Assembly (NCBI GenBank): GCA_947561715.1
Contig: OX387202.1
Coordinates: 11,235,001-11,299,000 of the forward strand
From: Ascidia mentula
Taxonomy: Eukaryota > Chordata > Ascidiacea > Phlebobranchia > Ascidiidae
Reading direction: 5' to 3'
DNA: 64,000 nt
The notes below the pieces were generated by a model, which saw only the letters and a list, made by a program, of their open reading frames with translations, was not told the origin of the DNA and made no database searches. A program made the position numbers and the translations under genes. Below are positions 15,300 through 47,397 of the stretch, piece after piece (the first letter of the stretch is position 1; each line of letters opens with the position of its first letter).

Positions 15300-17048
15300 T
15301 ATACCCAAACCCAACCGAACATGTTCGCTTATATACAAGTGACCTTGTCGCCAAGCTGTATGCTGGCAATGGGTTCTTTGCCGTCACAGGCGGTGACCTG
15401 CAGTTAAGTTCATTTCGCTGGGAATTTTGAAATGAGTTGGTATTTTAACTTATACCACGTTCATCAGCAGGCTCCAGGCAAGCCCTGTGCAAAATTAAAA
15501 AAAATCCTATGTCCCGGAAAGGTTTCAAATGTTCGCCTATACAAGAGACCCTGTCGCCAAGCTGTACGCGGGCAATGGGCTCTGTGCCGTCACAGTCGGT
15601 GACCTGCAGTTAAGTTCATTTCGCTGGGAAATTTGAAATGAGTTGGTATTTTCACTTATACCACGTTCATCAGCAGGCCTCAGGCAAGCCCTGTGCAAAA
15701 TTTAAAAAAATCCTATGTCCCGGAAAGGTTTCAAATGTTCGCCTATACAAGAGACCTTGTCGCCAAGGTATCAGCGGGCAATGACCTCTATTTCGTCACA
15801 GTCGTTGACCTGCGGTTGAATCCATTTCGCTGGGAAATTTGAAATGAGTTGGTATTTTAACTTATACCACGTTCATCAGCAGGCTCCAGGCCATCCCTGT
15901 GCAAAATTTAAAAAAATCCTATGGCCCGGAAAGGTTTCAAATGTTCGCCTATACAAGAGACCTTGTCGCCAAGGTATAAGCGGGCAATGAACTCTATTTC
16001 GTCACAGTCGTTGACCTGCGGTTAAATCCATTTCGCTGGGAAATTTGAAATGAGTTTGTATTTTAACTTATACCACGTTCATCAGCAGGCTCCAGGCCAT
16101 CCCTGTGCAAAATTTAAAAAAATCCTATGGCCCGGAAAGGTTTCAAATGTTCGCCTATACAAGAGACCTTGTCGCCAAGGTATAAGCGGGCAATGGGCTC
16201 TGTGTCGTCACAGTCGTTGACCTGCGGTTAAATCCATTTCGCTGGGAAATTTGAAATGAGTTGGTATTTTAACTTATACCACGTTCATCAGCAGGCTCCA
16301 GGCCATCCCTGTGCACAATTTAAAAAAATCCTATGTCCCGGAAAGGTTTCAAATGTTCGCCTATACAAGAGACCTTGTTCTCAAGGTATAAGCGGGCAAT
16401 GGGCTCTATGTCGTCACAGTCGTTGACCTGCGGTTGAATCCATTTCGCTGGGAAATTTGAAATGAGTTGGTATTTTAACTTATACCACGTTCATCAGCAG
16501 GCTCCAGGCAAGCCTTGTGCAAAATTTAAAAAAATCCTATGTCCCGGAAAGGTTTCAAATGTTCGTCTATACAAGAGACCTTGTCGCCAAGCTGTACGCG
16601 GGCAATGGGCTATATGCCGTCACAGGCGGTGACCTGCAGTTAAGTTCATTTCGCTGGGAAATTTGAAATGAGTTGGTATTTTAACTTAAACCACGTTCAT
16701 CAGCAGGCCTCAGGCAAGCCCTGTGCAAAATTTAAAAAAATCTTATGGCCCGGAAAGGTTTCAAATGTTCGCCTATATCAAGCGACTACACCACTATCTG
16801 CCTGATACATGACCGCATCAAATTTACAGGTTTTGTGACCTTAAAGTATATTTTATGTGAACGAATATTGTCAGATTCGATAGCATAGGTATGCTAAAGT
16901 TACATTTGATGTTTTTCGATAGTCAATGTGTTCTAATTTGGGTATGTAGTTGCGTTTTGTTTTTGATGAATCCCTTGAAGTGGTGTTCATTCATGCGTGA
17001 ATTATATTTCGTTGAAACAAAAAAATATTTCGCCGAAATGACAGTAGT
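15300..17048 (-). repeat. Right terminal inverted repeat with ~205-bp tandem array
   Basis: Inverted partner of the left TIR. Units recognised by the reverse motif end near 15541, 15748, 15955, 16163, 16365, 16570 and 16777, with one degraded unit near 15330. The outer arm (about 16790-17048) is nearly identical to the left arm. Confidence 0.88.
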
Positions 17049-17056
17049 GTTGAAGC
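17049..17056. repeat. Right target-site duplication GTTGAAGC
   Basis: Partner of 8995-9002, marking the right end of the transposon. Confidence 0.92.
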
Positions 17057-23100: not shown

Positions 23101-25453
23101 AACAAACATTTCAAAGTGACTGTGATTATAAGTTTGTTTTGAGAAAGTGCGGAATCAGAAGGTAGGAAGGGTAGGCTGAAAGATGTAACACAAAATTTTC
23201 TGTGACTAAGGCAGTTTGTTGGTGTTTCATGCGTAGGATTGCAATTTTTTGTACAGGTCCATGAATTGGACTGTTTCAATAATTAAACCCAATTTTTCTC
23301 AAAAACAAGTATTTTTCTGCAGACAGGTTTACACACTGTTTCGACCTGGAAGGTCTCATCAGTGCAGCTGGTGACCGTGGCACATGCTAGCTGGTAGACT
23401 AGCAAGTATTTTTCTATTTTAACATAAACATTACCTGATTGCCCAACAGATCTGTTCAGTCCTGTAAGAAGTCCATTGACATGTTCCATCATTTTGTTCA
23501 GAAATATGGATGATTTTTCTAAACAAAAACAGTACTTAAGAATATGGTATTGGTGGACATAAAGGTTTAGCCTTTTTTTATCAACATTAAAAAGTTTAAT
23601 AATATTTTTATAAACATTTCCTTTATTGTATACATAAGCTCAAAAGCAAAGCTCATACTTTGGTTGGTACTTTTTCCCAGCATGAGACCACATAAAAACC
23701 TCCTAACCATACTCCATTGACCTCCAGCTACCACATCATCGATCATTTTCTCAAACTCTTCTTCTGGCATGTAGGTGCTGATATACTTGGCCGTGAAAAT
23801 CTCCTGGAACAACTGGTGGCAAAAATATATAATTTTGTCACCATCAAACAGGCATTGATTAAATCCAAGTTGACGAGCCACGACTATCACAAAATCTTGA
23901 GCATTCATGTCATCAAGACCTTCTTCTTTGAGGTTTTCCATAGTAAAGACCACACTCCTTCGTAGCATACCCTTATAGGCCATTCTGCCAAGCGGTTCCC
24001 ATAGATTGTTGATATCCAGGCCTCTGGCATGATTTGAATGCCTTAAATGCTCCAGGATTGCCATAAAAAGTCCAGTAACAGTAGTTACAGAATTGAGGTC
24101 ATCAGCACTGCTGTACAGACCCACAATTACTATAAACTGTAATAGAATGGGATTATGACATAAATTAAGTAATTGGGGGGCTTTTGTGTTTAATATATTC
24201 CAGAGTTGTTCACTCTTTTCTCCAGCATAGGCATCGAACAACTTTTTCATGCTCTCAGTTGAAAGATCTTGAATGTAAATGGTGACATCTGGACGTAATT
24301 CAGACGGAATGGTGATCATTGCATGGGGTCTTGAAGTGAAGATGAGCCTGGAGTCCTTGAAAAACTTTTTGCTGCAAAGATTAGCTACTAGTTGTTGAAT
24401 AGACAGTGGTGTGTCATAAGAAGCATTTATTGGTTTTACATTTACAAGACTCCAAACAGCCTGATCATAGCCATCCATAATAAAAACACATTTTTCTGGA
24501 TTGTTAACCATCCATGCAAAAGCATTTTTTCTAGTGCTGCTATCAAGGCAAGGAAAAAGGTAATCCATTAAAAGCTGCCGTGCAGTAAGCTTGTCACTGT
24601 ATCCCATTTCCATGAACCGCAAATGGATTGGAAACAGGTCATTAACAGCCCTAATTAACATTTTGGATGCAGTGGATTTGCCACACCCAGGTTGCCCAAT
24701 CAGTGCAGTAAACTTTTTTTCGCTCACTAACTTAACTAACTCATTGAAAGGCACATTATGGCCTTTTTGCAAGTTTTTACCGAAAGATTTTACTATTGAG
24801 GATCCAAACACTTCACTTGCATCTTCGACCCCATCATAAAACTGGGTTGCTATGAAGGTAGGATATACAACTGGAAGGTCAATTGCAGTGGAATTTAACT
24901 GAGCAGGTAACAAAACATTTGCCCCCAAGTGTTTCTCTTGGTACTGAACCACTTCATTGATTGCTTCTCTATTTGTCCTGTCTGAAAAGCAAACAATGTT
25001 TGATAAATGGATGCACACCTTGGACCAAAAACATCATCACATGCTGACTGTTAAATTGTGAAACTACTTTAGTAAGTGAAAGCACCTTAGCAGGCTAATT
25101 TTCGTGTTTTGTGACAATTACCCAAATAGCTCTGATACAAATAAAAATATTTTTAGTATGTAATTTTATAACCAGTACAAACTTTGTTCGGGAACTGCTT
25201 CCATAGCTTGTTGTGCACTTGGTCCAGCAATTTGAACGTTATGTTGAATGTTTTGGACGATTTGTAGATTTTCAATTTTTTTTACCAAATAAAATTCATT
25301 TTGATGGTGGTGCTCCTCAGTTCCAATATAAAGATTCTAAACATGTCACAAATGAGGCATGTTTTATGATTTTTTTTTTATAAAAAATAAATATATACTG
25401 CTTACCTCACAGTTAATATTTTGCTCTGAAGAATTTGGTTTAGTCTCCTCCAT
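20063..25453 (-). CDS. NACHT-LRR receptor gene 2, 12 exons
   Basis: Intact paralogue of gene 1, 914 codons by the joined model. Exons: 25453-25406, 25336-25183, 24981-23659, 23518-23435, 23021-22786, 22622-22467, 22064-21909, 21769-21614, 21507-21352, 20911-20780, 20269-20236, 20172-20063. Exon 2 lacks 21 nt and exon 4 gains 18 nt relative to gene 1, both in frame. All LRR exons were read through and are open. The final exon is longer than in the paralogues because it enters the hAT-like element, supplying a different C-terminus. Intron 4 carries a SINE-like insertion. This is the only gene with the first-exon array upstream, and its own first exon is the proximal member of that array, so its transcription start choice may be unusual (inference). 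Confidence 0.85.
23319..23403. mobile_element. SINE-like 85-bp insertion in intron 4 of gene 2
   Basis: Flanked by a perfect 12-13 bp duplication (C)AAGTATTTTTCT (23306-23318 and 23403-23415) and absent from the same intron of genes 1 and 3. Its core GTTTCGACCT-GGTCTCAT-GTGCAGC recurs at 47678-47712 in the NDUFB10-like gene. Confidence 0.7.
23659..24981 (-). CDS. NACHT-domain exon of gene 2
   Basis: 1,323 nt, the same length and phases as gene 1. Walker A GQPGCGKST, Walker B FIMDGYDQ, then TSRPHA. The C-terminal two thirds are nearly identical to genes 1 and 3, while the first ~100 codons differ more. Confidence 0.92.
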
Positions 25454-25860
25454 TGTGTGATTACCAAGTTTGCATAGTCATGTTAATACTTTAAAACACA
25501 GTCTGGGCAAATAATCAAAGATCATAGTTTAACAAAATCTGTTTTACCATTAGAACCTACTTGTCACATTAAGTCTGATTCAAAGACGTTTGATCCAAAA
25601 GTAAGCTAACCAGTTTGTAAGTTAATGCCTATTTCCTTGTAAGTGATGTTGAAAGCATTATTGAACACCACACACAAATAATTGGGTTCTGATAATCCAA
25701 CTACAACTAGATAAAAAACATTAGTGCCTCGAGCTTACACATTTGCCTGGAAAATGATACATGGCCTTTCTTTGCTCGCCCAAAAGTAAACATTAACTGT
25801 CACGTAATATTTGTTGGCTCGAGTCGAAGTCCAAACATGTCGCTCACATATGGAAGCACA
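25454..25860 (-). promoter_or_regulatory. 5' flank of gene 2, proximal member of the array
   Basis: Matches the upstream regions of genes 1 and 3 and also every array unit. A segment near 25545-25615 is shared with the array but absent from genes 1 and 3, so the array arose from a gene-2-type 5' end. Donor-like CCATAT|GTGAGC lies at 25848/25847. The homology with genes 1 and 3 ends near 25860 and array sequence continues. Confidence 0.6.
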
Positions 25861-28800
25861 TTAATTTATTCACCTTTTGCATGGACGCAATACCTAATAA
25901 CCTTTCAGGTTTTATCGATGACCATGTCTCACAATTGCAGCGGTTTTTGCACAAAATGCAAACACCGTCATTCGAATTTTCAAAACAGTCTAAAAATGCG
26001 CATTTTCTGGGAACTGTCGACAACATTTTTGAAATAAAACGTGTGCTTCAATTTAAATTTAGGGACAAGGGACTAATAAAAAAAAACTAGGACCCAGGAC
26101 TAAAGATATCTCGTATAATTAAAGCGACCTACTAATTCAATGCATAATGGCCAAATTTCAGCTAAACACATGCCGGAATCCAGTTAAAAAACCAAGAACA
26201 AAGAAGGAATTCAGCAGCAAAGCTTGGACACAGACCGGCAGCAAAAACAAAAAAAGCAAGCTTTCGTAAGGAAGAAAACACGACTCAGAGAAAGCACAAA
26301 GGTGCCCGTACACTGAAGACGTATTCGCGTGAAATGTCGTCATGTTGCGGCGAAACCGTCATGGAATCAGAAAATAAGTGTTAGGCCAAGTATCCTACAT
26401 TTAACTGGTGACTTCGACGTGAATAATGTAAATATATTTGCTTGCCCAGCCCTATTTTTCACCATTGTGCATTGTTGTACTCTGTAAGGATGTAAGCCTA
26501 TAACCCTAACAACTGCTTACCTCACAGTTAATATTTTGCTCTTGAGAATTTGGTTTGGTCTCCTCCATTGTGCGGTTGTCAAGTTTGCATAGTTATGTTA
26601 ATACCTCAAAGCACAGTCTGGATAGTTAATCAAAGATCGTAGTTAAAGAAAATCTGTTTTACTATTAGAACATACTTGTCACATAAAGTACGATATAAAG
26701 ATGGTTGATCCAAAAAAGCTAACCAGTTTGATAGTTAATGCCTATATGTTGATTTATATAAGCATTATTGAACACCACACACAAATAATTGGAGTCTAGC
26801 ACTCCAACTTCAACTAAAAAAAACATTAGTGTTTCGAGCTTACACTTTCGCCTGGAAAACAATACGTGGCCTTAGTTTGCTCGCCCAAAAGTAAACATTC
26901 GCTGTCACGCAATATTTGTTGGCTCGAGTCGAAGTCCAAACATGTCGCTCACATATGGAAGCACATTAATTTATTCACCTTTTGCATGGACGCAATACCT
27001 AATAACCTTTCAGGTTTTATCGATGACCATGTCTTACAATTGCAGCGGTTTTTGCACAAAATGCAAACACTGTCATTCGAATTTTCAAAACAGTCTGAAA
27101 ATGCGCATTTTCTGGTGACGTCGATAACAATTTTGAAATAAAGTGTGCGTAAATTTAATTTTAGGGACAAGGGACTAACAAAAAAACTAGGACCCAGGAC
27201 TAAAGATATCTCGTATAATTAAAGCGACCTACTAATTCAATGCATAATAGCCAAATTTCAGCTAAACACATGCCGGAATCCAGTTAAAAAAACAAGAAAA
27301 AAGAAGGAATTCAGCAGCAAAGCTTGGACACAGACCGGCAGCAAAAACAAAAAAAGCAAGCTTTCGTAAGGAAGAAAACACGACTCAGAGAAAGCACAAA
27401 GGTGCCCGTACACTGAAGACGTATTCGCGTGAAATGTCGTCATGTTGCGGCGAAACCGTCATGGAATCAGAACATAAGTGTTAGGCCAAGTATCCTACAT
27501 TTAATTTGTGACTCCGACGTGATTAATGTAAATATATTTGCTTGCTCAGCCCTATTTTCACCATTGTGCATTGTTGTACTTTATATGGATGTAAGCCTAT
27601 AACCCTAACAACTGCTTACCTCACAGTTAATATTTTGATCTTGAGAATTTGGTTTAGTCTCCTCCATTGTGCGGTGGTCAAGTTTGCATAGTTATGTTAA
27701 TACCTCAAAGCACAGTCTGGACAATTAATCAAAGATCACAGTTTAACAAAATCTGTTTTACCATTAGAACATACTTGTCACATAAAGTACGATATAAAGA
27801 TGGTTGATCCAAAAAAGCTAACCAGTTTGATAGTTAATGCCTATATGTTGATTTATATAAGCATTATTGAACACCACACACAAATAATTGGAGTCTAGCA
27901 CTCCAACTTCAACTAAAAAAAAACATTAGTGCTTCGAGCTTACACTTTCGCCTGGAAAACAATACGTGGCCTTAGTTTGCTCGCCCAAAAGTAAACATTC
28001 GCTGTCACGCAATATTTGTTGGCTCGAGTCGAAGTCCAAACATGTCGCTCACATATGGAAGCACATTAATTTATTCACCTTTTGCATGGACGCAATACCT
28101 AATAACCTTTCAGGTTTTATCGATGACCATGTCTCACAATTGCAGCGTTTTTTTGCACAAAATGCAAACACCGTCATTTGAATTTTCAAAACAGTCTAAA
28201 AATGCTCATTTTCTGGGAACTGTCGACAACATTTTTGAAATAAAACGTGTGCATCATTTTAATTTTAGGGACAAGGGACTAATAAAAAAAAAACTAGGAC
28301 CCAGGACTAAAGATATCTCGTATAATTAAAGCGACCTACTAATTCAATGCATAATGGCCAAATTTCAGCAAACACATACCGGTATCCAGTAAAAAAACAA
28401 AAAAAAAGGACGAGGGGACATATGCTGCAGCAGAGCTTGGACAAAGACCGGCAGCAAAAACAAAAGCAGGCTTTTGTAAGGAAGAATACACGACTTAGAG
28501 AAAGCACAAAGGTGCACGTACACTGAAGACGTAGGCTATTCGCGTGAAATGTCGTCATGTTGCGGCGAAACCGTCATGGAATCAGAAAATAAGTGTTAGG
28601 CCAAGTATCCTACATTCAACTGGTGACTTCGACGTAATTAATGTAAATATATTTGCTTGCCCAGCCCTATTTTTCACCATTGTGCATTGTTGTACTCTGT
28701 ATGGATGTAAGCCTATAACCCTAACAACTGCTTACCTCACAGTTAATATTTTGCTCTTGAGAATTTGGTTTAGTCTCCTCCATTGTGCGGTTGTCAAGTT

Positions 28801-29852
28801 TGCATAGTTATGTTAATACCTCAAAGCACAGTCTGGACAGTTAATCAAAGATTATAGTTTAACAAAATCTGTTTCACCATTAGAACATACTTGTCACATA
28901 AAGTACGATATAAAGATGGTTGATCCAAAAAAGCTAACCAGTTTGATAGTTAATGCCTATATGTTGATTTATATAAGCATTATTGAACACCACACACAAA
29001 TAATTGGAGTCTAGCACTCCAACTTCAACTAAAAAAAAACATTAGTGTTTCGAGCTTACACTTTCGCCTGGAAAACAATACGTGGCCTTAGTTTGCTCGC
29101 CCAAAAGTAAACATTCGCTGTCACGCCATATTTGTTGGCTTGAGTCGAAGTCCAAACATGTCGCTCACATATGGAAGCACATTAATTTATTCACCTTTTG
29201 CATGGACGCAATACCTAATAACCTTTCAGGTTTTATCGATGACCATGTCTTACAATTGCAGCGTTTTTTTTTGCACAAAATGCAAACACCGTCATTCGAA
29301 TTTTCAAAACAGTCGAAAAACGCGCATTTTCTGGGAACAGTCGACAACATTTTTGAAACAAAACGTGTGCATCAATTTAATTTTAGGGACAAGGGACTAA
29401 TAAAAAAAAAACCAAGACCCAGGACTAAAGATATATCTCGTATAATTAAAGCGACCTACTAATTCAATGCATAATAGCCAAATTTCAGCTAAACACATGC
29501 CGGAATCCAGTTAAAAAAACAAGAAAAAAGAACGAATTCAGCAGCAAAGCTCGGACACAGACCGGCAGCAAAAACAAAAAAAGCAAGCTTTCGTGAGGAA
29601 GAAAACACGACTCAGAGAAAGCACAAAGGTGCCCGTACACTGAAGACGTATTCGCGTGAAATGTCGTCATGTTGCGGCGAAACCGTCATGAAATCAGAAA
29701 ATAAGTGTTAGGCCAAGTATCCTACATTTAACTGTTGACTTCGACGTGATTAATGTAAATTTATTTGCTTGCCCAGCCCTATTTTTCACCATTGTGCATT
29801 GTTGTACTCTGTATGGATGTAGCCTAAGCATATAACCCTAACAACTGCTTAC

Positions 29853-29900
29853 CTCACAGTTAATATTTTGCTCTTCAGAATTAGGTTAAGTCTCCTCCAT
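29853..29900 (-). pseudogene. Array first-exon copy 4 with nonsense codon
   Basis: The fifth codon region reads ATG GAG GAG ACT TAA, so the exon is closed after four residues. The splice donor is intact. It is the only copy I found with a stop. Confidence 0.8.
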
Positions 29901-32900
29901 TGTGCGGTTGTCAAGTTTGCATAGTTATGTTAATACCTCAAAGCACAGTCTGGACAGTTACTCAAAGATCATAGTTTAACAAAATCTGTTTTACCATTGG
30001 AACATACTTGTCACATAAAGTACGATATAAAGATGGTTGATCCAAAAAAGCTAACCAGTTTGGTAGTTAATGCCTATATGTTGATTTATATAAGCATTAT
30101 TGAACACCACACACAAATAATTGGAGTCTAGCACTCCAACTTCAACTAAAAAAAAACATTAGTGTTTCGAGCTTACACTTTCGCCTGGAAAACAATACGT
30201 GGCCTTAGTTTGCTCGCCCAAAAGTAAACATTCGCTGTCACGCCATATTTGTTGGCTTGAGTCGAAGTCCAAACATATCGCTCACATATGGAAGCACATT
30301 AATTTATTCACCTTTTGCATGGACGCAATACCTAATAACCTTTCAGGTTTTATCGATGACCATGTCTTACAATTGCAGCGTTTTTTTTGCACAAAATGCA
30401 AACACCGTCATTCGAATTTTCAAAACAGTCTAAAAACGCTCATTTTCTGGGAACTGTCGACAACATTTTTGAAATAAACGTGTGCATCAATTTAATTTTA
30501 GGGACAAGGGACTAACAAAAAAAACTAGGACCCAGGACTAAAGATATCTCGTATAATTAAAGCGACCTACTAATTCAATGCATAATGGCCAAATTTCAGC
30601 TAAACACATGCCGGAATCCGGCTAAAAAATCAAGAAAAAAGAACGAATTCTGCAGCAAAGCTTGGACACAGACCGACAGCAAAAACAAAAAAAGCAAGCT
30701 TTCGTAAGGAAGAAAACACGACTCAGAGAAAGCACAAAGGTGCCCGTACACTGAAGACGTATTCGCGTAAAATGTCGTCATGTTGCGGCGAAACCGTCAT
30801 GGAATCAGAAAATAAGTGTTAGGCCAAGTATCCTACATTTAACTGTTGACTCCGACGTGATTAATGTAAATTTATTTGCTTGCCCATCCCTATTTTTCAC
30901 CATTGTGCATTGTTGTACTCTGTATGGATGTAAGCCTATGACCCCAACAACTGCTTACCTCACAGTTAATATTTTGATCTTGAGAATTTGGTTTAGTCTC
31001 CTCCATTGTGCGGTTGTCAAGTTTGCATAGTTATGTTAATACCTCAAAGCACAGTCTGGACAATTAATCAAAGATCACAGTTTAACAAAATCTGTTTTAC
31101 CATTAGAACATACTTGTCACATAAAGTACGATATAAAGATGGTTGATCCAAAAAAGCTAACCAGTTTGGTAGTTAATGCCTATATGTTGTTTTATATAAG
31201 CATTATTGAACACCACACACAAATAATTGGAGTCTAGCACTCCAACTTCAACTAAAAAAAACATTAGTGCTTCGGGCTTACACTTTCGCCTGGAAAACAA
31301 TACGTGGCCTTAGTTTGCTCGCCCAAAAGTAAACATTCGCTGTCACGCAATATTTGTTGGCTCGAGTCGATGTCCAAACATGTCGCTCACATATGGAAGC
31401 ACATTAATTTATTCACCTTTTGCATGGACGCAATACCTAATAACCTTTCAGGTTTTATCGATGACCATGTCTTACAATTGCAGCGTTTTTTTTGCACGCA
31501 AAGCAAACACCGTCATTCGAATTTTCAAAACAGTCTAAAAACGCGCATTTTCTGGGAACTGTCGACAACATTTTTGAAATAAACGTGTGCAGCAATTTAA
31601 TTTTAGGGACGAGGGACTAACAAAAAAAAACTAGGACCCAGGACAAAAGATATCTCGTATAATTAAAGCGACCTACTAATTCAATGCATAATAGCCAAAT
31701 TTCAGCTAAACACATGCCGGAATCCAGTTTAAAAAACAAGAAAAAGGAACGAATTCAGCAGCAAAGCTTGGACACAGACCGGCAGCAAAAACAAAAAAAG
31801 CAAGCTTTCGTAAGGAAGAAAACACGACTCAGAGAAAGCACAAAGGTGCCCGTACACTGAAGACGTATTCGCGTGAAATGTCGTCATGTTGCGGCGAAAC
31901 CGTCATGGAATCAGAAAATAAGTGTTAGGCCAAGTATCCTACATTTAACTGTTGACTTCGACGTGATTAATGTAAATTTATTTGCATCCCCAGCCCTATT
32001 TTTCACCATTGTGCATTGTTGTACTCTGTATGGATGTAGCCTAAGCATATAACCCTAACAACTGCTTACCTCACAGTTAATATTTTGCTCTTGAGAATTT
32101 GGTTTAGTCTCCTCCATTGTGCGGTTGTCAAGTTTGCATAGTTATGTTAATACCTCAAAGCACAGTCTGGACAGTTAATCAAAGATCATAGTTTAACAAA
32201 ATCTGTTTTACCATTAGAACATACTTGTCACATAAAGTACGATATAAAGATGGTTGATCCAAAAAAGCTAACCAGTTTGATAGTTAATGCCTATATGTTG
32301 ATTTATGTAAGCATTATTGAACACCACACACAAATAATTGGAGTCTAGCACTCCAACTTCAACTAAAAAAAATTCGTGTTTCGAGCTTACACTTTCGCCT
32401 GGAAAACAATACGTGGCCTTAGTTTGCTCGCCCAAAAGTAAACATTCGCTGTCACGCAATATTTGTTGGCTCGAGTCGAAGACCAAACATAACACTCACA
32501 TATGAAAGCACATTAATTTATTCACCTTTTGCATGGACGCAATACCTAATAACCTTTCAGGTTTCATTGATGTCCATGCCTTGGTTTACAGGTGCAGCGG
32601 TTTTTACTGAAAATTATAACACTGCATCGTACGAATTTTCAAAACAGTCTAAAAACGCGCATTTTCTGGTGACGTTGATAACAATTTTAAAATAAAGTGA
32701 GCATCAATTTAATTTTAGGGACAAGGGACTAATAAAAAAAAGCTAGGACCCAGGACTAAAGATATCTCGTATAATTAAAGCGACCTACTAATTCAATGCA
32801 TAATGACCAAATTTCAGCTAAACACATGCCAGAATCCAGTCAAAAAAACAAGAAAAAAGAAGGAATTCAGCAGCAAAGCTTGGACACAGACCGGCAGCAA

Positions 32901-33177
32901 AAACAAAAAAAAGCAAGCTTTCGTAAGGAAGAAAACACGACTCAGAGAAAGCACAAAGGTGCCCGTACACTGAAGACGTATTCGCGTGAAATGTCGTCAT
33001 GTTGCGGCGAAACCGTCATGGAATCAGAAAATAAGTGTTAGGCCAAGTATCCTACATTTAACTGGTGACTTCGACGTGATTAATGTAAATTTATTTGCTT
33101 GCCCAGCCCTATTTTTCACCATTGCGCATTGTTGTACTCTGTATGGATGTAAGCCTATAACCCTAACAACTGCTTAC

Positions 33178-33234
33178 CTCACAGTTAATATTGTTAATAT
33201 TTTGCTCTTGAGAATTTGGTTTGGTCTCCTCCAT
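33178..33234 (-). other. Array first-exon copy 7 with 9-bp in-frame insertion
   Basis: An ATATTAACA-type 9-bp duplication lengthens this exon to 57 nt and repeats Asn-Ile-Asn. Start codon, frame and donor are kept. Confidence 0.75.
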
Positions 33235-36200: not shown

Positions 36201-39200
36201 GAAAAAAGAACGAATTCTGCAGCAAAGCTTGGACACAGACCGGCAGCAAAAACAAAAAAAGCAAGCTTTCGTAAGGAAGAAAACACGACTCAGAGAAAGC
36301 ACAAAGGTGCCCGTACACTGAAGACGTATTCGCGTAAAATGTCGTCATGTTGCGGCGAAACCGTCATGGAATCAGAAAATAAGTGTTAGGCCAAGTATCC
36401 TACATTTAACTGGTGACTCCGACGTGATTAATGTAAATATATTTGCTTGCCCAGCCCTATTTTCCACCATTGTGCATTGTTGTACTCTGTATGGATGTAA
36501 GCCTATAACCCTGACAACTGCTTACCTCACAGTTAATATTTTGCTCTTGAGAATTTGGTTTAGTCTCCTCCATTGTGCGGTTGTCAAGTTTGCATAGTTA
36601 TGTTAATACCTCAAAGCACAGTCTGGACAGTTAATCAAAGATCATAGTTTAACAAAATCTGTTTTACCATCAGAACATACTTGTCACATAAAGTACGATA
36701 TAAAGATGGTTGATCCAAAAAAGGTAACCAGTTTGATGGTTAATGCCTATGTGTTGATTTATATAAGCATTATTGAACACCACACACAAATAATGGGAGT
36801 CTAGCACTCCAACTTCAACTAAAAAAACATTAGTGTTTCGAGCTTACACTTTCGCCTGGAAAACAATACGTGGCCTTAAGTTTGCTCGCCCAAAAGTAAA
36901 CATTCGCTGTCACGCAATATTTGTTGGCTCGAATCAAAGTCCAAACATGTCGCTCACATATGGAAGGACATTAATTTATTCACCTTTTGCATGGACGCAA
37001 TACCTAACAACCTTTCAGGTTTTATCGATGACCATGTCTTACAATTGCAGCGGTTTTTTGCACAAAATGCAAACACCGTCATTCGAATTTTCAAAACAGT
37101 CTAAAAATGCGCATTTTCTGGGAACTGTCGACAACATTTTTGAAATAAAACGTGTGCATCAATTTAATTTTAGGGACAAGGGACTAATAAAAAAACACTA
37201 GGACCCAGGACTAAAGATATCTCGTATAATTAAAGCAACCTACTAATTCAATGCATAATGGCCAAATTTCAGCTAAACACATGCCGGGATCCAGTTAAAA
37301 AACAAAGAACAAAGAACGAATTTTGCAGCAAAGCTTGGACACAGACCGGCAGCAAAAACAAAAAAAGCAAGCTTTCGTAAGGAAGAAAACACGACTCAGA
37401 GAAAGCACAAAGGTGCCCGTACACTGAAGACGTATTCGCGTAAAATGTCGTCATGTTGCGGCGAAACCGTCATGAAATCAGAAAATAAGTGTTAGGCCAA
37501 GTATCCTACATTTAACTGGTGACTCCGACGTGATTAATGTAAATTTATTTGCTTGCCCAGCCCTATTTTTCGCCATTGTGCATTGTTGTACTCTGTATGT
37601 ATGTAAGCCTATAACCCTATAACAACTGCTTACCTCACAGTTAATATTTTGCTCTTGAGAATTTGGTTTAGTCTCCTCCATTGTGCGGTTGTCAAGTTTG
37701 CATAGTTATGTTAATACCTCAAAGCACAGTCTGGACAGTTAATCAAAGATCATAGTTTAACAAAATCTGTTTTACCATTAGAACATACTTGTCACATAAA
37801 GTACGATATAAAGAGGGTTGATCCAAAAAAGGTAACCAGTTTGATGGTTAATGCCTATGTGTTGATTTATATAAGCATTATTGAACACCACACACAAATA
37901 ATTGGAGTCTAGCACTCCAACTTCAACTAAAAAAACATTAGTGCCTCGAGCTTACACTTTCGCCTGGAAAACAATACGTGGCCTTAAGTTTGCTCGCCCA
38001 AAAGTAAACATTCGCTGTCACGCAATATTTGTTGGCTCGAATCAAAGTCCAAACATGTCGCTCACAGATGGAAGCACATTAATTTATTCACCTTTTGCAT
38101 GGACGCAATACCTAACAACCTTTCAGGTTTTATCGATGACCATGTCTTACAATTGCAGCGGTTTTTTGCACAAAATGCAAACACCGTCATTCGAATTTTC
38201 AAAACAGTCTAAAAATGCGCATTTTCTGGGAACTGTCGACAACATTTTTGAAATAAAACGTGTGCATCAATTTAATTTTAGGGACAAGGGACTAATAAAA
38301 AAAAACTAGGACCCAGGACTAAAGATATCTCGTATAATTAAAGCAACCTACTAATTCAATGCATAATGGCCAAATTTCAGCTAAACACATGCCGGAATCC
38401 AGTTAAAAAACCAAGAACAAAGAACGAATTTTGCAGCAAAGCTTGGACACAGACCGGCAGCAAAAACAAAAAAAGCAAGCTTTCGTAAGGAAGAAAACAC
38501 GACTCAGAGAAAGCACAAAGGTGCCCGTACACTGAAGACGTATTCGCGTAAAATGTCGTCATGTTGCGGCGAAACCGTCATGGAATCAGAAAATAAGTGT
38601 TAGGCCAAGTATCCTACATTTAACTGGTGACTCCGACGTGATTAATGTAAATTTATTTGCTTGCCCAGCCCTATTTTTCACCATTGTGCATTGTTGTACT
38701 CTGTATGTATGTAAGCCTATAACCCTATAACAACTGCTTACCTCACAGTTAATATTTTGCTCTTGAGAATTTGGTTTAGTCTCCTCCATTGTGCGGTTGT
38801 CAAGTTTGCATAGTTATGTTAATACCTCAAAGCACAGTCTGGACAGTTAATCAAAGATCATAGTTTAACAAAATCTGTTTTACCATTAGAACATACTTGT
38901 CACATAAAGTACGATATAAAGATGGTTGATCCAAAAAAGGTAACCAGTTTGATGGTTAATGCCTATGTGTTGATTTATATAAGCATTATTGAACACCACA
39001 CACAAATAATTGGAGTCTAGCACTCCAACTTCAAGTAAAAAAAAAACATTAGTGTTTCGAGCTTACACTTTCGCCTGGAAAACAATACGTGGCCTTAGTT
39101 TGCTCGCCCAAAAGTAAACATTCGCTGTCACGCAATATTTGTTGGCTCGAGTCGAAGACCAAACATAACACTCACATATGGAAGCACATGAATTTATTCA

Positions 39201-42200
39201 CCTTTTGCATGGACGCAAGACCTAATAACCTTTCAGGTTTCATTGATGTCCACGCCTTGGTTTACAGGTGCAGCGGTTTTTACTGAAAATTAAAACACTG
39301 GGTGGTACGAATTTTCAAAACAGTCTAAAAACGCGCATTTTCTGGGAACTGTCGCCAACATTTTTAAAATAAAACGTGTGCATCAATTTAATTTTAGGGA
39401 CAAGGGACTAATAAAAAAAAAACTAGGACCCAGGACTAAAGACATCTCGCATAATTAAAGCGACCTACTAATTCAATGCATAATGGCCAAATTTCAGCTA
39501 AACACATGCCGGAATCCAGTTAAAAAACCAAGAAAAAAGAACGAATTCTGCAGCAAAGCTTGGACACAGACCGGCAGCAAAAACAAAAAAAGCAATCTTT
39601 CGTAAGGAAGAAAACACGACTCAGAGAAAGCACAAAGGTGCCCGTACACTGAAGACGTATTCGCGTAAAATGTCGTCATGTTGCGGCGAAACCGTCATGG
39701 AATCAGAAAATAAGTGTTAGGCCAAGTATCCTACATTTAACTGGTGACTCCGACGTGATTAATGTAAATATATTTGCTTGCCCAGCCCTATTTTTCACCA
39801 TTATGCATTGTTGTACTCTGTATGGATGTAAGCCTATAACCCTAACAACTGCTTACCTCACAGTTAATATTTTGCTCTTGAGAATTTGGTTTAGTCTCCT
39901 CCATTGTGCGGTTGTCAAGTTTGCATAGTTATGTTAATACCTCAAAGCACAGTCTGGACAGTTAATCAAAGATCATAGTTTAACAAAATCTGTTTTACCA
40001 TTAGAACATACTTGTCACATAAAGTACGATATAAAGATGGTTGATCCAAAAAAGCTAACCAGTTTGATAGTTAATGCCTGTATGTTGATTTATATAAGCA
40101 TTATTGAACACCACACACAAATAATTGGAGTCTAGCACTCCAACTTCAACGAAAAAAAACATTAGTGCTTCGAGCTTACACTTTCGCCTGGAAAACAATA
40201 CGTGGCCTTATAGTTTGCTCGCCCAAAAGTAAACATTCGCTGTCACGCAATATTTGTTGGCTCGAGTCGAAGTCCAAACATGTCGCTCACATATGGAAGC
40301 ACATTAATTTATTCACCTTTTGCATGGACGCAATACCTAATAACCTTTCAGGTTTTATCGATGACCATGTCTTACAATTGCAGCGTTTTTTTGCACAAAA
40401 TGCAAACACTGTCATTCGAATTTTCAAAACAGTCTAAAAATGCGCGTTTACTGGGAACTGTCGACAACATTTTTGAAATCAAGCGTGTGCATCAATTTAA
40501 TTTTAGTGACAAGGGACTAATAAAAAAAACTAGGACCCAGGACTAAAGATATCTCGTATAATTAAAGCGACCTACTAATTCAATGCATAATGGCCAAATT
40601 TCAGCTAAACACATGCCGGTATCCAGTTAACAAACCAAGAAAAAAGGACGAGAGGACATATGCTGCAGCAGAGCTTGGACACAGACCGGCAGCCAAAACA
40701 AAAGCAGGCTTTTGTAAGGAAGAAAACACGACTCAGAGAAAGCACAAAGGTGCCCGTACACTGAAGACGTATTCGCGTAAAATGTCGTCATGTTGCGGCG
40801 AAACCGTCATGGAATCAGAAAATAAGTGTTAGGCCAAGTATCCTACATTTAACTGGTGACTCCGACGTGATTAATGTAAATTTATTTGCTTGCCCAGCCC
40901 TATTTTTCACCATTGTGCATTGTTGTACTCTGTATGGATGTAAGCCTATAACCCTAACAACTGCTTACCTCACAGTTAATATTTTGCTCTTGAGAATTTG
41001 GTTTAGTCTCCTCCATTGTGCGGTTGTCAAGTTTGCATAGTTATGTTAATACCTCAAAGCACAGTCTGGACAGTTAATCAAAGATCATAGTTTAACAAAA
41101 TCTGTTTTACCATTAGAACATACTTGTCACATAAAGTACGATATAAAGATGGTTGATCCAAAAAAGCTAACCAGTTTGATAGTTAATGCCTATATGTTGA
41201 TTTATATAAGCATTATTGAACACCACACACAAATAATTGGAGTCTAGCACTCCAACTTCAACTAAAAATAAACATTAGTGCTTCGAGCTTACACTTTCGC
41301 CTGGAAAACAATACGTGGCCTTAGTTTGCTCGCCCAAAAGTAAACATTCGCTGTCACGTAATATTTGTTGGCTCGAGTCGAAGTCCAAACATGTCGCTCA
41401 CACATGGAAGCACATTAATTTATTCACCTTTTGCATGGACGCAATACCTAATACCCTTTCAGGTTTTATCGATGTCCATGTCTTACATTTGCAGCGGTTT
41501 TTGCACAAAATGCAAACACCGTCATTCGAATTTTCAAAACAGTCTGAAAATGCGCATTTTCTGGGAACTGTCGACAACGTTTTTGAAATAAAACGTGTGC
41601 ATCAATTTAATTTTAGGGACAAGGGACTAATAAAAAAACTAGGACCCAGGACTAAAGATATCTCGTATAATTAAAGCGACCTACTAATTCAATGCATAAT
41701 GGCCAAATTTCAGCTAAACACATGCCGGAATCCAGCTAAAAAACCAAGAACAAAGAACGAATTCTGCAGCAAAGCTTGGACACAGACCGGCAGGAAAAAC
41801 AAAAAAAGCAAGCTTTCGTATGGAAGAAAACACGACTCAGAGAAAGCACAAAGGTGCCCGTACACTGAAGACGTATTCTCGTGAAATGTCGTCATGTTGC
41901 AGCGAAACCGTCATGGAATCAAAAAATAAGTGTTAGGCCAAATATCCTACATTTAACTGGTGACTCCGACGTGATTAATGTAAATTTATTTGCTTGCCCA
42001 GCCCTATTTTTCACCATTGTGCATTGTTGTACTCTGTATGGATGTGTAACGTTTATGCTGTGACGTAGTGTTCACATTTACGTAATTTTCCATTAGTTAA
42101 TGCAGAGTGACTTAGCAGTTCGTACCAGGAAGTGTAACTCCTATTTTCTGAAACGACACAGGAGATCGCTCGTAACACGTAATTATGTATCGCGGTTCTC

Positions 42201-42513
42201 ACGCAAGCCGCATGACTGAATTGTCTTTAAATCTCTGGTTTCTGTGGCCCGAATTCATTCCACATCGTGGAATCGCCACTCTGCGCTGGGCTTCTGCCTA
42301 GTGTGGTGTCACCATTTCATTCTACATTTTGGTTCGCCTTTAGCGTAGAATCACCGTCTGTATATTCTACTCTGGGGCTCAGTTGTATTCTGCACATATA
42401 TCTTTCGTCTTTGGTGAATAAAACAAACTAACACAAGTTTGGTTAGTTACGAAGAGGAGTCAGGAGTCAAGGAAACGCATATCGCAGTTGAACACGCAAT
42501 TCAAACTTCTAAC

Positions 42514-42676
42514 TGTATTGTTGTAGTTTGTTACACAACATAAACGGAAAGAAACAGCAGTGCGCAGTAACATAGGTTGCAATAGAATGCCCTTGGCGGC
42601 ACAGAGGAACACTTATATATGAGGTGGTCACGTGACACCACCACGTTGTGCAATCATTCAGGCGAAACACACTACA
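42514..42676 (-). repeat. 3' LTR of the gypsy element
   Basis: 163 bp, TGTATTGTTG...CACTACA on the plus strand. One mismatch with the other LTR (GGAAAG versus GGAACG). Confidence 0.95.
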
Positions 42677-42689
42677 TCCCCCTTTCCTC
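42677..42689 (-). other. Polypurine tract
   Basis: Minus-strand GAGGAAAGGGGGA abuts the 3' LTR, as needed for plus-strand DNA priming. Confidence 0.8.
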
Positions 42690-42823
42690 AAAATGCGAAT
42701 TCGGAATCGGAATTACCGGAATTACAAGTCCAGACGAACGGGTGGTTTTACGAACCGACCGGAACGCGTACGTAGTTCACATTGTTCTGGAATCGGCCGT
42801 ATGTGTCGACGGTTACGTCGCAA

Positions 42824-45800
42824 TCACCGGTTTGGGGTATCGACGATGTAAGAGCGTGGAAGTGAAGTGTGAGAACGTACAATGCCTTCCTCTTCACCGA
42901 TCCAAGCGTACGTTTCCGGGGAAAGTTCAGGTAGAGACCGTACCCGATGTCGCTTGTCGTAATTTTGCTTTTGATTTTTCTTGATTTCGAGATCTTTAGC
43001 TCTGAAACTCGATAAATAAGACCAGTTAGGGACAAGAGACGACGTCCAACACGGAATTGTCGTCTTCAACCGTCTTCCCATCAACAACTCCGCTGGGCTG
43101 TATCCGGAAGCCAACTTTGTAGCACGGTAAGAAAGTAACGTCAAAACTGGGTCTTCGGCTTTGCTCAGAAGACTTTTTACCGTCTTTACAGCCCTTTCCG
43201 CTTCTCCATTGCTCTGTGGATACAGTGGGCTGCTAGTCTGGTGAATGAAGCCATATTTGTTGGCGAAACACTGAAAAAGATAGGAATTGTATTGTGGGCC
43301 GTTATCCGACATGTCTGGAATCCCATGACGGGAAAAAATAGACTTCAAGTGACTGATAATGTCCGATGAGCTCGTGCCATGAGCGAGTAGGGACATCTCA
43401 ATGAACCTCGAGAAGTAATCTACGACCAATAGATACATTTTACCTTGGAAATACAGCAAATCTGTTCCTACTCGTTCCCATGGTCTACTGGGCAGAAGAG
43501 AAGGAATCATTGGTTCTGCTGACATATTTCTATTCCGCTGACACTTAATGCAGCTGGAAACAAATTGATTAATGTCGTTGGTAATACCTGGCCACCAGAC
43601 AGAATCTTGGGCTCTCCGTCTACACTTTTCCATCCCCGGATGTCCAACATGGATACTGCGCAAAATTTCATTTCGCAGAACTTCAGGAATGATAAGTCTG
43701 GAGCCTTTGAGAAGCAATCCGTCAACAACAGTTATATCGTGGCGCACTTGGAAATATGGCTGCAGCGAATCGATATACACTCGTTTAGGCCAACCGCCTT
43801 TAGTAAGTTGAATAACTTTTTGACTTAATACGTCACACTTCGTCGCGTCACGGATTTGCTGTAACCGTGTTTGAGATGCGGGAATGTTAGCAATTACCGC
43901 AACAACGTTTTCTTCTATCTCATGTTGCAAAGTAATTTCAATTGCAGAGAGCGAGTTTAGAGAAGGCGATCTAGAGAGTGCATCAGCAGCATGCAAAGAT
44001 TTACCAGGTACATGAACTATATCAAAGTGATACCACAACAAACGCATTCTTAACCTTTGCAATCGAGGGGACAACTCATCAATATTCTTTTTTCCTAAGA
44101 TGCTAAGAAGGGGCTTATGATCAGTCTCCATAATAAACTTTAGCCCAATCAAATATTCACGAAACTTTTCACACGACCAAGCTACTGCCAAAGCTTCTTT
44201 CTCAATTTGAGCGTACCTCTGTTCTGTTTTCGTTAGTGCTCGTGATGCGTAGGCTACTGGACGAAAGTTACCGTTTCTTCGCTGTAATAAAACAGCCCCG
44301 AGTCCATACGATGATGAATCAGCAGAAACTACAGTTTCAGCCCGAGGATCATAATGTTGAAGAATGTCAGCGCTCGTGAGAAGATCTTTTATTGCCTTAA
44401 AAGATTCTTCATGTGGACGAAGCCACTGCCATGGTTCATCCTTCTGTAACAGTCCACACAACGGTTTAGATATGTCTGCCAAACGGGGAACAAATTTTGC
44501 GAGTTGATTTGCTAAACCCAAAAACCTGCGCAATCCCGTTATATCGTTAGGAGGTTTCATGGACACTACTGCTTCTATTTTTGAAGGATCTGGATAAATA
44601 CCATTTTCATCAATGATATGACCTAAGAAACCGATTCGTTTCGCAGAAAAGACACACTTATCTGCATTTAACGTTACTCCAGCCTGCTGTAGGCGCGACA
44701 AGACTTCCATCAAACGCTCGTCGTGATGTGTCTGAGTGTCTCCAAACACGAGAATGTCGTCCATGTGGCACAAAACTCCTTGAAGTGAGTCCAATATTTG
44801 TGACATTTGTCTTTGGAAATGTTCTGGAGCAGATGTTATACCGAAAGGTAATCTATTAAAACAGAACCTCCCCACTGGTGTTATGAAAGTGGTGAGCAAT
44901 CGAGATTTTTTTGAGAGTACAATTTGCCAAAATCCCGAATTAGCATCCAATTTAGAAAAATATTTAGAACCGGATAGGCGAGCAAGTGTTGCATCAACAG
45001 TAGGCAGCATCAGTCGTTCGCGACAAACATGTTTATTTAAGTGAGTATAGTCCACACATATTCTAACGGTTTTGTTTTTCTTTGGGACCACAACCATGCC
45101 GGCGCACCAATCAGTTGGTTTAAGTACACGAGAAATAACTCCAATTTCTTCCATTCTTTTTAGTTCGGTTATAACTTTATCATGTAAAGGAAGTGGCACT
45201 CTGCGAGGTGAAGTGAGACAAAATGGTTTTGTTGAATGTATGAGTTTTATATCATAAGTGGGTGTCAATTGTCCAAGTCCCGAAAAAATCTTGGGGTATA
45301 AATCGGTAAACTTACTTTCAGATTTTACTGCACAAAGAGACTTGAGAATATTCAGAGACTCTATAGCCGGCCAACCAAGTAGTGATTGCCGTAATCCTTT
45401 GACAACATAAATATCTTGTACCGACGAAATACCTTCATGTTCTAATTTGGCTGAGAATTTTCCTTTTAGCGAAAGTCGAACACCCTGAGGACTCCGCAAC
45501 ACTTCACTGCAAGGTAACAATTCCGGGGCATCCAAGAAGTTATGTAGTTGAACAGAAATAGCAGTTACATCCGCACCTGTGTCTATACGGAAGTTGATTG
45601 TTTTGCCATTAACAAAAACAGAAAAGTTATTTTTCTGTCTACCTGACATAGCGGTACAAATATACACCCGTCCCAAGTACAAAGGCAACTTATTTTCTTC
45701 TATGAAATGAAGTGATTTGCTTTTACATACCGACTGGAAATGACCGCGCTTGTTGCACGTGTGACATGTAGCATTGCGCGCTCGGCAAAGTTGCCTTGGA

Positions 45801-45829
45801 TGAGCCTCGCATTTCCACACCACTGGCAT
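42824..45829 (-). CDS. pol: Gypsy pol polyprotein (protease, RT, RNase H, integrase)
   Basis: 1,001-codon open frame; the first Met is not a likely true start. A CCHC knuckle CHTCNKRGHFQSVC lies at residues 22-35. Aspartic protease DTGA is at 83-86. Reverse transcriptase has SKLDANSGF near 295 and the active site CHMDDILVFG with Asp357-Asp358. RNase H has Asp504, a Glu near 545 and Asp570. Integrase has the H-H-C-C zinc site (H727 or H730 region, C760, C763) and D790, D842, E878 with the D-35-E spacing. HGIPDMSDNGPQ is about two residues shorter before the second Asp than is usual, suggesting a small in-frame deletion. All catalytic residues are present. Confidence 0.95.
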   Translation of the reverse strand: MPVVWKCEAHPRQLCRARNATCHTCNKRGHFQSVCKSKSLHFIEENKLPLYLGRVYICTAMSGRQKNNFSVFVNGKTINFRIDTGADVTAISVQLHNFLDAPELLPCSEVLRSPQGVRLSLKGKFSAKLEHEGISSVQDIYVVKGLRQSLLGWPAIESLNILKSLCAVKSESKFTDLYPKIFSGLGQLTPTYDIKLIHSTKPFCLTSPRRVPLPLHDKVITELKRMEEIGVISRVLKPTDWCAGMVVVPKKNKTVRICVDYTHLNKHVCRERLMLPTVDATLARLSGSKYFSKLDANSGFWQIVLSKKSRLLTTFITPVGRFCFNRLPFGITSAPEHFQRQMSQILDSLQGVLCHMDDILVFGDTQTHHDERLMEVLSRLQQAGVTLNADKCVFSAKRIGFLGHIIDENGIYPDPSKIEAVVSMKPPNDITGLRRFLGLANQLAKFVPRLADISKPLCGLLQKDEPWQWLRPHEESFKAIKDLLTSADILQHYDPRAETVVSADSSSYGLGAVLLQRRNGNFRPVAYASRALTKTEQRYAQIEKEALAVAWSCEKFREYLIGLKFIMETDHKPLLSILGKKNIDELSPRLQRLRMRLLWYHFDIVHVPGKSLHAADALSRSPSLNSLSAIEITLQHEIEENVVAVIANIPASQTRLQQIRDATKCDVLSQKVIQLTKGGWPKRVYIDSLQPYFQVRHDITVVDGLLLKGSRLIIPEVLRNEILRSIHVGHPGMEKCRRRAQDSVWWPGITNDINQFVSSCIKCQRNRNMSAEPMIPSLLPSRPWERVGTDLLYFQGKMYLLVVDYFSRFIEMSLLAHGTSSSDIISHLKSIFSRHGIPDMSDNGPQYNSYLFQCFANKYGFIHQTSSPLYPQSNGEAERAVKTVKSLLSKAEDPVLTLLSYRATKLASGYSPAELLMGRRLKTTIPCWTSSLVPNWSYLSSFRAKDLEIKKNQKQNYDKRHRVRSLPELSPETYAWIGEEEGIVRSHTSLPRSYIVDTPNR

Positions 45830-46440
45830 CTTCCCTCGGGCTTCATTCCAGTGCTTGATTGGCGCTTGCGTTGAACGCGCTCAACGTCGGCATAGGAATG
45901 ATATGTGCGACGCATTTCCACCTGCTGCTTTTTCACAATCTCAGTGTTTCTGGCCATATTCACTGCTTTATTCAAAGTTAGATTAGGATCTAGTAGCAAT
46001 CGCTCAGACAAACTTTTATCAAGCAACCCAACCACGATACGATCTCTTATCATTTCTTCTTTTAGTTCGCCAAAATTGCAGCTTTCGACTAGTGAAAATA
46101 GTGAAGTTATAAATTCATCAATAGTTTCTCCAGGTCTTTGCGCACGTGAATTAAACTGGCATCGTTCATAAATTACATTCTTACGAACATCAAAGTATTC
46201 ATCAAACTTTAATTTTACAATGTCGTACGTTGTAACTTCGTCAGCAGATAAACCGAAAGAGTTTAGAATATCATCGGCCTTATCGCCGAGAAGGTATATT
46301 AGTGTATCAGTTTGCTTTTTCTTTGATTCGTCAGACAATTTAGACGCTGATCTGTAGCGATCAAACCTGCGAATCCATGTCCTCCAGCTTTCCGGCTTGT
46401 TGAAATCAAAGCATTCCGGCGGCGATATCTGGAAAGCCAT
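45700..46440 (-). CDS. gag: Gypsy gag protein
   Basis: 246 codons beginning MAFQISPPECF. The capsid-like region is followed by the first half of a zinc knuckle (CQWCGN). The knuckle's second half and a complete second knuckle are in the pol frame, so this ORF ends prematurely in a frame that does not carry the nucleocapsid. Gag packages the element RNA into particles in the cytoplasm. Confidence 0.85.
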   Translation of the reverse strand: MAFQISPPECFDFNKPESWRTWIRRFDRYRSASKLSDESKKKQTDTLIYLLGDKADDILNSFGLSADEVTTYDIVKLKFDEYFDVRKNVIYERCQFNSRAQRPGETIDEFITSLFSLVESCNFGELKEEMIRDRIVVGLLDKSLSERLLLDPNLTLNKAVNMARNTEIVKKQQVEMRRTYHSYADVERVQRKRQSSTGMKPEGRCQWCGNARLIQGNFAERAMLHVTRATSAVISSRYVKANHFIS

Positions 46441-46489
46441 ACTCTTCTATCACTTAGGTAGTGGACAAGGCAAATATCTTGAGGTCCAG

Positions 46490-46501
46490 CTTCTGACACC
46501 A
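46490..46501 (-). other. Primer binding site, tRNA-Leu-like
   Basis: Minus-strand TGGTGTCAGAAG starts directly at the 5' LTR edge. It is complementary to a tRNA 3' end CTTCTGACACCA, which fits a leucine tRNA as far as I recall. Confidence 0.75.
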
Positions 46502-46664
46502 TGTATTGTTGTAGTTTGTTACACAACATAAACGGAACGAAACAGCAGTGCGCAGTAACATAGGTTGCAATAGAATGCCCTTGGCGGCACAGAGGAACAC
46601 TTATATATGAGGTGGTCACGTGACACCACCACGTTGTGCAATCATTCAGGCGAAACACACTACA
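46502..46664 (-). repeat. 5' LTR of the gypsy element
   Basis: Partner of 42514-42676. TATATGAG near 46603 may relate to promoter function. Confidence 0.95.
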
Positions 46665-46685
46665 CTAACAACACACATTTCTACA

Positions 46686-47130
46686 GATGTAAGCCTATAA
46701 CCCTAACAACTGCTTACCTCACAGTTAATATTATGCTCTTGAGAATTTGGTTTAGTCTCCTCCATTGTACGGTTGTCAAGTTTGCATAGTTATGTTAATA
46801 AATTTCAGCTAAACACATGCCGGAATCCAGTTAAAAAAACAAGAAAAAAGGACGAGAGGACATATGCTGCAGCAGAGCTTGGACACAGACCGGCAGCCAA
46901 AACAAAAGCAGGCTTTTGTAAGGAAGAAAACACGACTCAGAGAAAAGCACTTTCAAATTCAAAACAGTGTAAACGCGCATTTTCTGGTGACTGTCGACAA
47001 CAATTTTAAAATAAAACATGTGCATAAATTAAATTTTAGGGATAAGGGACTAATAAAAAATACTAGGGCCCAGGAGTAAAGATATCTCGTTTAATTTTAG
47101 GGGTAAGGGACTAATAAAAAATACCAGGGC
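46686..47130. repeat. Degenerate distal end of the first-exon array
   Basis: After the fifteenth exon copy, only fragments of the unit remain, with internal deletions joining parts that are normally several hundred bases apart (for example at 46800 and 46950). The motif AGGG(A/G)TAAGGGACTAATAAA is duplicated at 47037 and 47099. This is the outer edge of the array. Confidence 0.75.
46718..46765 (-). other. Array first-exon copy 15, beyond the nested LTR elements
   Basis: Open, with intact donor; one Gln is replaced by His. Removing the inserted 4,645 bp puts it 1,104 bp from copy 14, so the array was continuous before insertion. Confidence 0.8.
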
Positions 47131-47397
47131 CCACTAAAACATGTGCTTTATATCATCAATTTTGCCTGATTGGCTTTTTCAGGAGTGTTTTGGTTATTAG
47201 CAATTATGGCATTTTTTCATCATTAGTATTTTAGCGGTTATCACATTTTTATTAAATTTTTGGGCTTGCTATGTGTTATGTGGTTGTTTGTATTTTACAG
47301 GATCTTTGATATTTACCTTGACACACCTCACTTGTAAAAGTTGTTTTTGTGTGTGTTGGGCTGTGGTGAATCGGTTCCCAAGCCACATGACAAAATA
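47131..47397. other. Spacer between array and NDUFB10-like gene
   Basis: Non-coding. It holds the putative 5' flank of the plus-strand gene starting at 47398; no clear promoter motif. Confidence 0.4.

Follow-up and report, generated by a model that had tools for sequence, protein, structure and literature searches.

A stretch of 64,000 nucleotides from the ascidian Ascidia mentula (assembly GCA_947561715.1, contig OX387202.1, here C70:11235001-11299000, called the window) contains three NLR genes, named D, E and F. Directly upstream of the middle one, gene E (gene 2 of an earlier first-pass annotation), lies an array of 15 extra copies of an NLR first exon with upstream DNA. The array is probably a locally amplified, gene-derived satellite that is at most incidentally transcribed. 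A new conclusion is that the present 5' end of gene E did not seed it.

A scripted scan of the gene cluster finds exon 1 at 23 places, namely the eight genes' own copies and the 15 of the array. Between positions 25406 and 46765 of the window there are 16 of them, gene E's own and the 15 extras, which stand head to tail upstream of gene E. The array exons are 16 codons long and uniform in orientation, and successive exon copies are 1099-1118 bp apart (14 units, gene E's exon included). The donor GTAAGCAGT is kept after the exon in all 15 extra copies (in the copy at 33234, after a duplication), and 14 of the 15 are open. A copy of exon 2 was not found in the array: the query 24800-25700 matches array copies from 25397 upward only. 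The first-pass annotation had described 15 extra first exons in the orientation of the gene, a unit of about 1.1 kb, one copy that is not open, donors kept throughout and no exon 2. The sequence agrees with it on each point, including the exon ends at 28736, 34296 and 40969 and the exon 2 acceptor at 25336.

The contiguous part of the array occupies 25809-42045 on the minus strand and holds 14 exon copies, each with flank and spacer in a unit of about 1.1 kb. Ten of the 15 copies encode the peptide MEETKPNSQEQNINCE unchanged. From gene E outward, all on the minus strand, the exons lie at 26521-26568 (one synonymous change), 27620-27667 (E10D), 28736-28783 (consensus), 29853-29900 (in-frame stop, three changes), 30959-31006 (E10D), 32070-32117 (consensus) and 33178-33234 (in-frame duplication of 9 bp). 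The consensus exon is then found at 34296-34343, 35411-35458, 36526-36573, 37634-37681, 38742-38789, 39857-39904 and 40969-41016; the copies at 38742 and 39857 have lost the AG of a candidate acceptor near -245. The fifteenth copy, at 46765-46718 (Q11H), belongs to a rearranged outermost remnant with shuffled spacer blocks (46690-47140, minus strand).

One end of the repeat unit lies near base 10 of intron 1; from there the unit takes in exon 1 and reaches about 1.05 kb upstream. By comparison with the other genes of the cluster, it is ancestral NLR upstream DNA together with exon 1 and nine bases of the intron. In gene C the same segment is single and uninterrupted and ends at that gene's own exon 1 (11231678-11230562, 91% identity), and gene H retains the greater part as one piece that has diverged further (80%). 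The two halves stand about 0.8 kb apart in gene A and several kb apart in genes F and G, where the middle is partly unmatched. Because one continuous sequence in A, C, F and G spans the point where the array unit starts, that point marks a breakpoint of the array rather than an element's boundary. The two sides of the junction overlap by a 2-bp GT, and any position within this shared GT is a possible join. The flank of about 400 bp that had been assigned to each copy corresponds to the stretch common to the flanks of genes D and F (about 400 bp). Two refinements apply: the whole 1.05 kb is ancestral, and the copy at 46765 keeps only about 35 bp of its cognate 5' flank.

Two other accounts of the unit were considered and rejected. 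A foreign transposon as the spacer is ruled out, since the spacer is ancestral NLR upstream DNA. A hidden gene is not apparent in a tripled unit consensus, where the longest frame starting with ATG has 84 codons in antisense and 61 in sense.

The unit is also a chimera. Over the distal stretch (-1050 to about -350), the consensus of the array and gene C disagree at 14 of 699 compared positions (about 2%). Proximally, from -350 to -1, the divergence of the consensus is 12.0% for gene C, 13.4% for A, 14.3% for E and 12.2% for H, compared with 1.9-5.0% within the trio A, C and E over this region. The proximal tree contains one split, with a long branch and a support of 1.000, that has the 14 aligned copies of the array on one side and all eight genes on the other. 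The spacer tree places the genes in between units of the array. Gene E's own exon 1 (25453-25406, minus strand; MEETKPNSSEQNINCE, phase 0, donor GTAAGCAGT) and its proximal flank of about 350 bp (25454-25808, minus strand) are of the A/C type, and the flank differs from the array copies. On these alignments, the proximal part and exon 1 of the array are those of an NLR lineage without a close representative among the genes found in the assembly, and the distal part is of A/C/E type. Because the proximal lineage is separate from that of gene E, the promoter region that has been multiplied is not gene E's.

A closer source for the proximal part was not found among the 23 matches listed. All 22 matches of one unit search and all 23 of another lie on C70:11.20-11.33 Mb, that is, in the eight-gene cluster only; both searches score top candidates alone and pass over very common words, and the 22 leave out the contiguous array copies, so other matches could be missed. 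An array carried by a transposon or a Helitron was considered as well, and dispersed copies elsewhere were not seen among the matches listed.

Identity among the 14 aligned units ranges from 93.6 to 99.5% (mean 95.9 over 91 pairs), which leaves no room for a chance resemblance. Two groups of greater likeness can be recognized, u3-u6-u7 and u4-u5-u8, and a fall of likeness with the distance between units is not significant (permutation p 0.15). Spacer variants occur in shared blocks, some of them F/G-like or H-like, so that the units are mosaics. The rearranged fifteenth copy is parted from the others by a Ty3-type long terminal repeat (LTR) retrotransposon (42046-46689, minus strand, ends placed by eye), and the DNA next to this copy resembles sequence upstream of gene H. 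The retrotransposon is probably a recent arrival, since the 3.2 kb of it that was searched has four other full-length matches in the genome at 97-99%. As judged by eye, its right LTR-like stretch is followed by about 460 bp that are unexplained.

These features suggest how the array may have formed. A tandem duplication of one NLR 5' end brought some nine bases of intron 1 up against DNA from about 1.05 kb upstream, a join that can be read directly in the units. The duplicated 5' end would already have been a chimera, with a distal part of A/C/E type and the proximal part and exon 1 of another NLR lineage. Expansion to about 15 copies would have been accompanied by exchange between copies and with spacers of paralogue type, as the mosaicism indicates; the agent may have been unequal crossing-over or conversion. 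Gene E, with its A/C-type promoter, was probably joined to the array through an exchange near -350. The copies may start transcripts, and such RNA would give either nearly the same 16-residue N-terminus or, via splice sites inside the units, a short dead-end frame. Whatever the array does to gene E is most likely minor or incidental.

By its sequence, the array is of the kind expected of a gene-derived satellite, with a single-copy ancestral segment in a paralogue, mosaic exchange and likeness groups among its units. The first-pass annotation had offered an inert satellite seeded by the gene's 5' end as its alternative. The satellite fits better overall; the seed has to be changed, from the present gene E to a lost or converted relative.

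Mutation counts offer a way to ask whether the copies are under selection. They were made on the 14 aligned copies, leaving out gene E's own unit and the rearranged copy at 46765. Polymorphic columns are as frequent in the exon (5/48) as in the flank (34/349, p 0.80). One stop is observed where 0.4-1.1 are expected, the TATATAA motif is changed in one copy where 1.1 are expected, and the donor is unchanged in all 14, which has a neutral probability of 0.22. For stop, TATA and donor, these counts are consistent with local mutation rates. The AG of the acceptor near -245 is lost in 2 of the 14 copies, compared with 0.33 expected. Flank columns that are invariant among the genes are polymorphic in the array in 17 of 211 cases, and gene-variable ones in 8 of 76 (p 0.49), so that gene-invariant columns are not spared. 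At 17 of the 211 gene-invariant columns, the commonest base of the array is found in no gene. Selection on the exon alone was considered and is unsupported, 24% of 48-base windows outside the exon being equally invariant.

Several observations weigh against a purely neutral satellite. Private variants were counted if they occur in one unit only, are absent from the genes, lie at least 20 bp apart and fall outside indels and CpG. With region boundaries and filters that were picked after the data had been seen, such variants number 45/546 in the spacer and 13/374 in flank, exon and donor, making them 2.4-fold rarer in the latter (p 0.0035); without thinning the counts are 69/692 and 20/410 (p 0.0028). 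Private exon substitutions are found in the stop-bearing copy and in none of the other 13 aligned copies. The gene pairs C-E, A-C, A-E and F-G have no such flank deficit (odds ratios 0.59-1.08), and the array's odds ratio of 2.49 differs from three of them (p 0.004-0.010), though not from A-C (p 0.17). In addition, TATATAA stands in the proximal part of the array at a position where all eight genes lack it. Finally, all 15 donors are intact, the orientation never changes and the array adjoins a single NLR gene, whose NACHT exon is open.

A flank deficit is present, on the other hand, in the distant gene pair C-H (spacer 101/577, flank 32/348, odds ratio 2.10), which is like the array in this respect (p 0.65). 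The array's ratio thus matches that of long-diverged genes. Constraint would produce it, and so would a younger proximal cassette spread by conversion or a spacer that changes faster. Because the unit is a chimera, a younger common origin of its proximal part by conversion is plausible. The shortage of private mutations in the promoter and exon part nevertheless leaves room for a functional reading.

The functional reading that survives best, although unlikely, is that each copy is a working start or an enhancer-like promoter duplicate, so that copy number tunes the output of gene E. Transcripts from the array would skip the other copies, splice to exon 2 and encode nearly the same protein. 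The 15 intact donors, the 14 open exons, TATATAA in 13 of 14 aligned copies and the depletion of private mutations in promoter, exon and donor, in the same proportion as between C and H, are all in its favor. An array of this kind would also resemble ribosomal DNA (rDNA) spacers with core-promoter duplications, as described in part of PMC1215480. It is weakened by the lack of sparing at gene-invariant columns, by exon and TATA losses at chance level, by a possible competing acceptor inside each unit and by the multiplied promoter not being gene E's. The idea that the array feeds gene E and multiplies its promoters, put forward in the first-pass annotation, is right on the anatomy, but the feeding is putative: the proximal part of 14 copies is of another lineage, the exon and TATA losses and the retained donors fit the mutation rate, and splice sites inside the units could lead array transcripts into dead ends. 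A broader version, of about the same rather low probability, is that the number of copies of a chimeric promoter-plus-first-exon cassette, which spread because it works, determines receptor expression, with spliced-leader trans-splicing tolerating or exploiting the extra donors.

The spliced leader (SL) enters the argument through the genome. The 16-base Ciona SL followed by GT occurs at 2,323 places with at most one mismatch, compared with 1 for a reversed control. The same 16 bases are the SL of C. intestinalis, where it is spliced to at least 58% of expressed genes according to an excerpt of PMC7986045. On this basis the host genome is taken to have SL trans-splicing. The 16-mers also occur in runs, with a spacing of about 720 bp over some 53 kb at C1:15239664-15292838 (among the first 100 of the 2,323 places listed).

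A possible leader acceptor can be recognized in this NLR family. A conserved, good-looking 3' splice site lies about 236-254 bases before the NLR start codon, at 25700-25730 and at the same place in genes A, B and C, and is a candidate for the leader acceptor of the family. In the array, a crude scan of the aligned copies places a T-run with an AG some 245 bases ahead of the start codon; 12 of 14 keep the AG, and in 11 of 14 it is preceded by an intact CACTAAT. The similar candidate of gene E is at -253, and in gene F the AG is absent at that place. A splice from one copy to the next is predicted to meet a stop after 5 further codons via this site and after 3 via a weaker one at -49. Splice sites inside the units mean that array transcripts would not automatically give full-length receptor mRNA.

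Such sites allow a second, quite improbable reading, in which donors of the array lying upstream of gene E's leader acceptor draw that acceptor into cis-splicing and so damp gene E. RNAs started in the array would then carry MEETKPNSQEQNINCE and stop within a few codons. The abundance of the SL, its identity with that of Ciona, the acceptor-like sites in the units and in gene E and the early stops of copy-to-copy splices are all consistent with this. In Ciona, moreover, the first functional acceptor is favored by trans-splicing, and weaker first donors accompany higher efficiency (PMC11155486, in part). The acceptor of gene E and its use of the SL are only predicted, however, and from a crude scan; gene F lacks the AG, and two array copies have lost it.

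An assembly artefact, in the sense of a false expansion, is very improbable. Tandem arrays are a classic trouble spot for assembly, but the 184-kb sequence of the cluster contains no N and each of the 14 aligned units differs from every other, which speaks against a simple assembly expansion. Furthermore, 13 of the 14 units have private variants, and the LTR insertion uniquely marks one unit. Variable first exons that generate receptor diversity, in the style of Pcdh or UGT1A, are hardly credible: the geometry of tandem first exons before one downstream exon set, which the first-pass annotation had compared with those loci, is indeed the same, but this assembly contradicts the logic of variable exons, since 10 of the 15 peptides are identical, four have one substitution or a three-residue duplication and one has a stop, making protein diversity unlikely.

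The array at gene E is unusual. No such array was found upstream of other NLR genes in 24 stretches of 2.5-5 kb each; these represent 24 of the 80 NACHT matches beyond the cluster, a non-random choice made by list and contig, and arrays lying farther out would have escaped the test. One of the stretches has one 289-bp repeat pair and another has two pairs (167 and 286 bp). The same test detects the array of gene E with 2.5 or 4 kb. Within what was examined, the array is the only one found in the genome. An array of this type at an NLR gene was not described in the titles and abstract openings of the open-licence literature searched.

The assembly that was searched comprises 195.8 Mb in 79 contigs. 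Genes A to H are close relatives that form a tandem cluster of eight at C70:11.208-11.326 Mb, all on the minus strand, and at least 80 further NACHT matches with 42-50% identity lie on other contigs. Downstream of its first exon, gene E has a 154-nt exon 2 (25183-25336, minus strand), with a TTTAG acceptor before 25336 and a donor after 25183 placed by eye; its phase, also read by eye, is compatible with exons 1 and 3. Exon 3 (23567-24981, minus strand, start by eye) is open and encodes the NACHT and a NOD2 winged helix. The best protein match of this exon is from Phallusia mammillata (52% identity; the second-best has 47%), and Clavelina lepadiformis accounts for 5 of the 12 matches listed (33-39%). 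Short conserved reading frames at 21298-22085, common to genes E and F, encode peptides that by eye resemble leucine-rich repeats.

Other features of the window lie near gene D. Its 5' flank contains an 8-kb insertion (9002-17049) with inverted ends of 1.73 kb that are 95% alike, each end holding about seven tandem repeats of 206 bp. An open reading frame within it (11912-12484) matches the Ulp1/C48 protease, barely at the Pfam cut-off. The insertion looks like a large DNA transposon. Downstream of the NACHT exon of gene D there is a tandem duplication of 139 bp (2587-2855, 93%). Structural RNAs and tRNAs were not found in the whole window by Rfam at gathering scores and ARAGORN.

The array matters because a receptor gene has here been multiplied at its 5' end alone, so that the dosage of promoter and first exon can be separated from that of the receptor. 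Variation in dosage of whole NLR genes is known from zebrafish, where their number differs between individuals (PMC11192531, in part). If transcribed, the array would let the effect of promoter copy number on an immune gene be studied in a natural setting, and would do the same for the way in which SL trans-splicing copes with many strong donors upstream of a leader acceptor. If inert, it indicates that NLR clusters shed orphan 5' ends, which annotation may take for genes or alternative starts.

A first comparison can be made with rDNA, which is transcribed by RNA polymerase I. Its intergenic spacers contain duplicates of the core promoter, and in several taxa their length, as a measure of promoter number, has been linked to growth rate or development time (PMC1215480, in part). 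The arrays of spacer promoters in Drosophila and others are like the present array in having tandem promoter duplicates upstream of a gene, and they evolve by unequal crossing-over (same source), as the present array may do. Here the likeness, tandem promoter duplicates directly upstream, is one of anatomy only, since the duplicate is of a related, putative promoter and not of gene E's. In rDNA, moreover, a whole multigene array is concerned, whereas here a single protein-coding NLR gene is preceded by units that carry a coding exon and a donor and whose activity is putative. Gene E is a NACHT NLR and not an rRNA gene, and the window has no Rfam match at gathering score.

The Pcdh alpha and gamma, UGT1 and GCNT2 loci share another property with the array, several tandem first exons upstream of constant exons (PMC1885805, in part). 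The exons of the array differ from these in being near-identical and only 16 codons long, and their splicing to common exons is putative. A third comparison is with partial tandem gene duplications and gene-derived satellites, in which units likewise stand head to tail and exchange sequence as mosaics, the junction has a short homology and a paralogue keeps the single-copy ancestor. Compared with such satellites in general, the unit at gene E is distinguished by being confined to an upstream region and a first exon, and by being a chimera of two NLR lineages.

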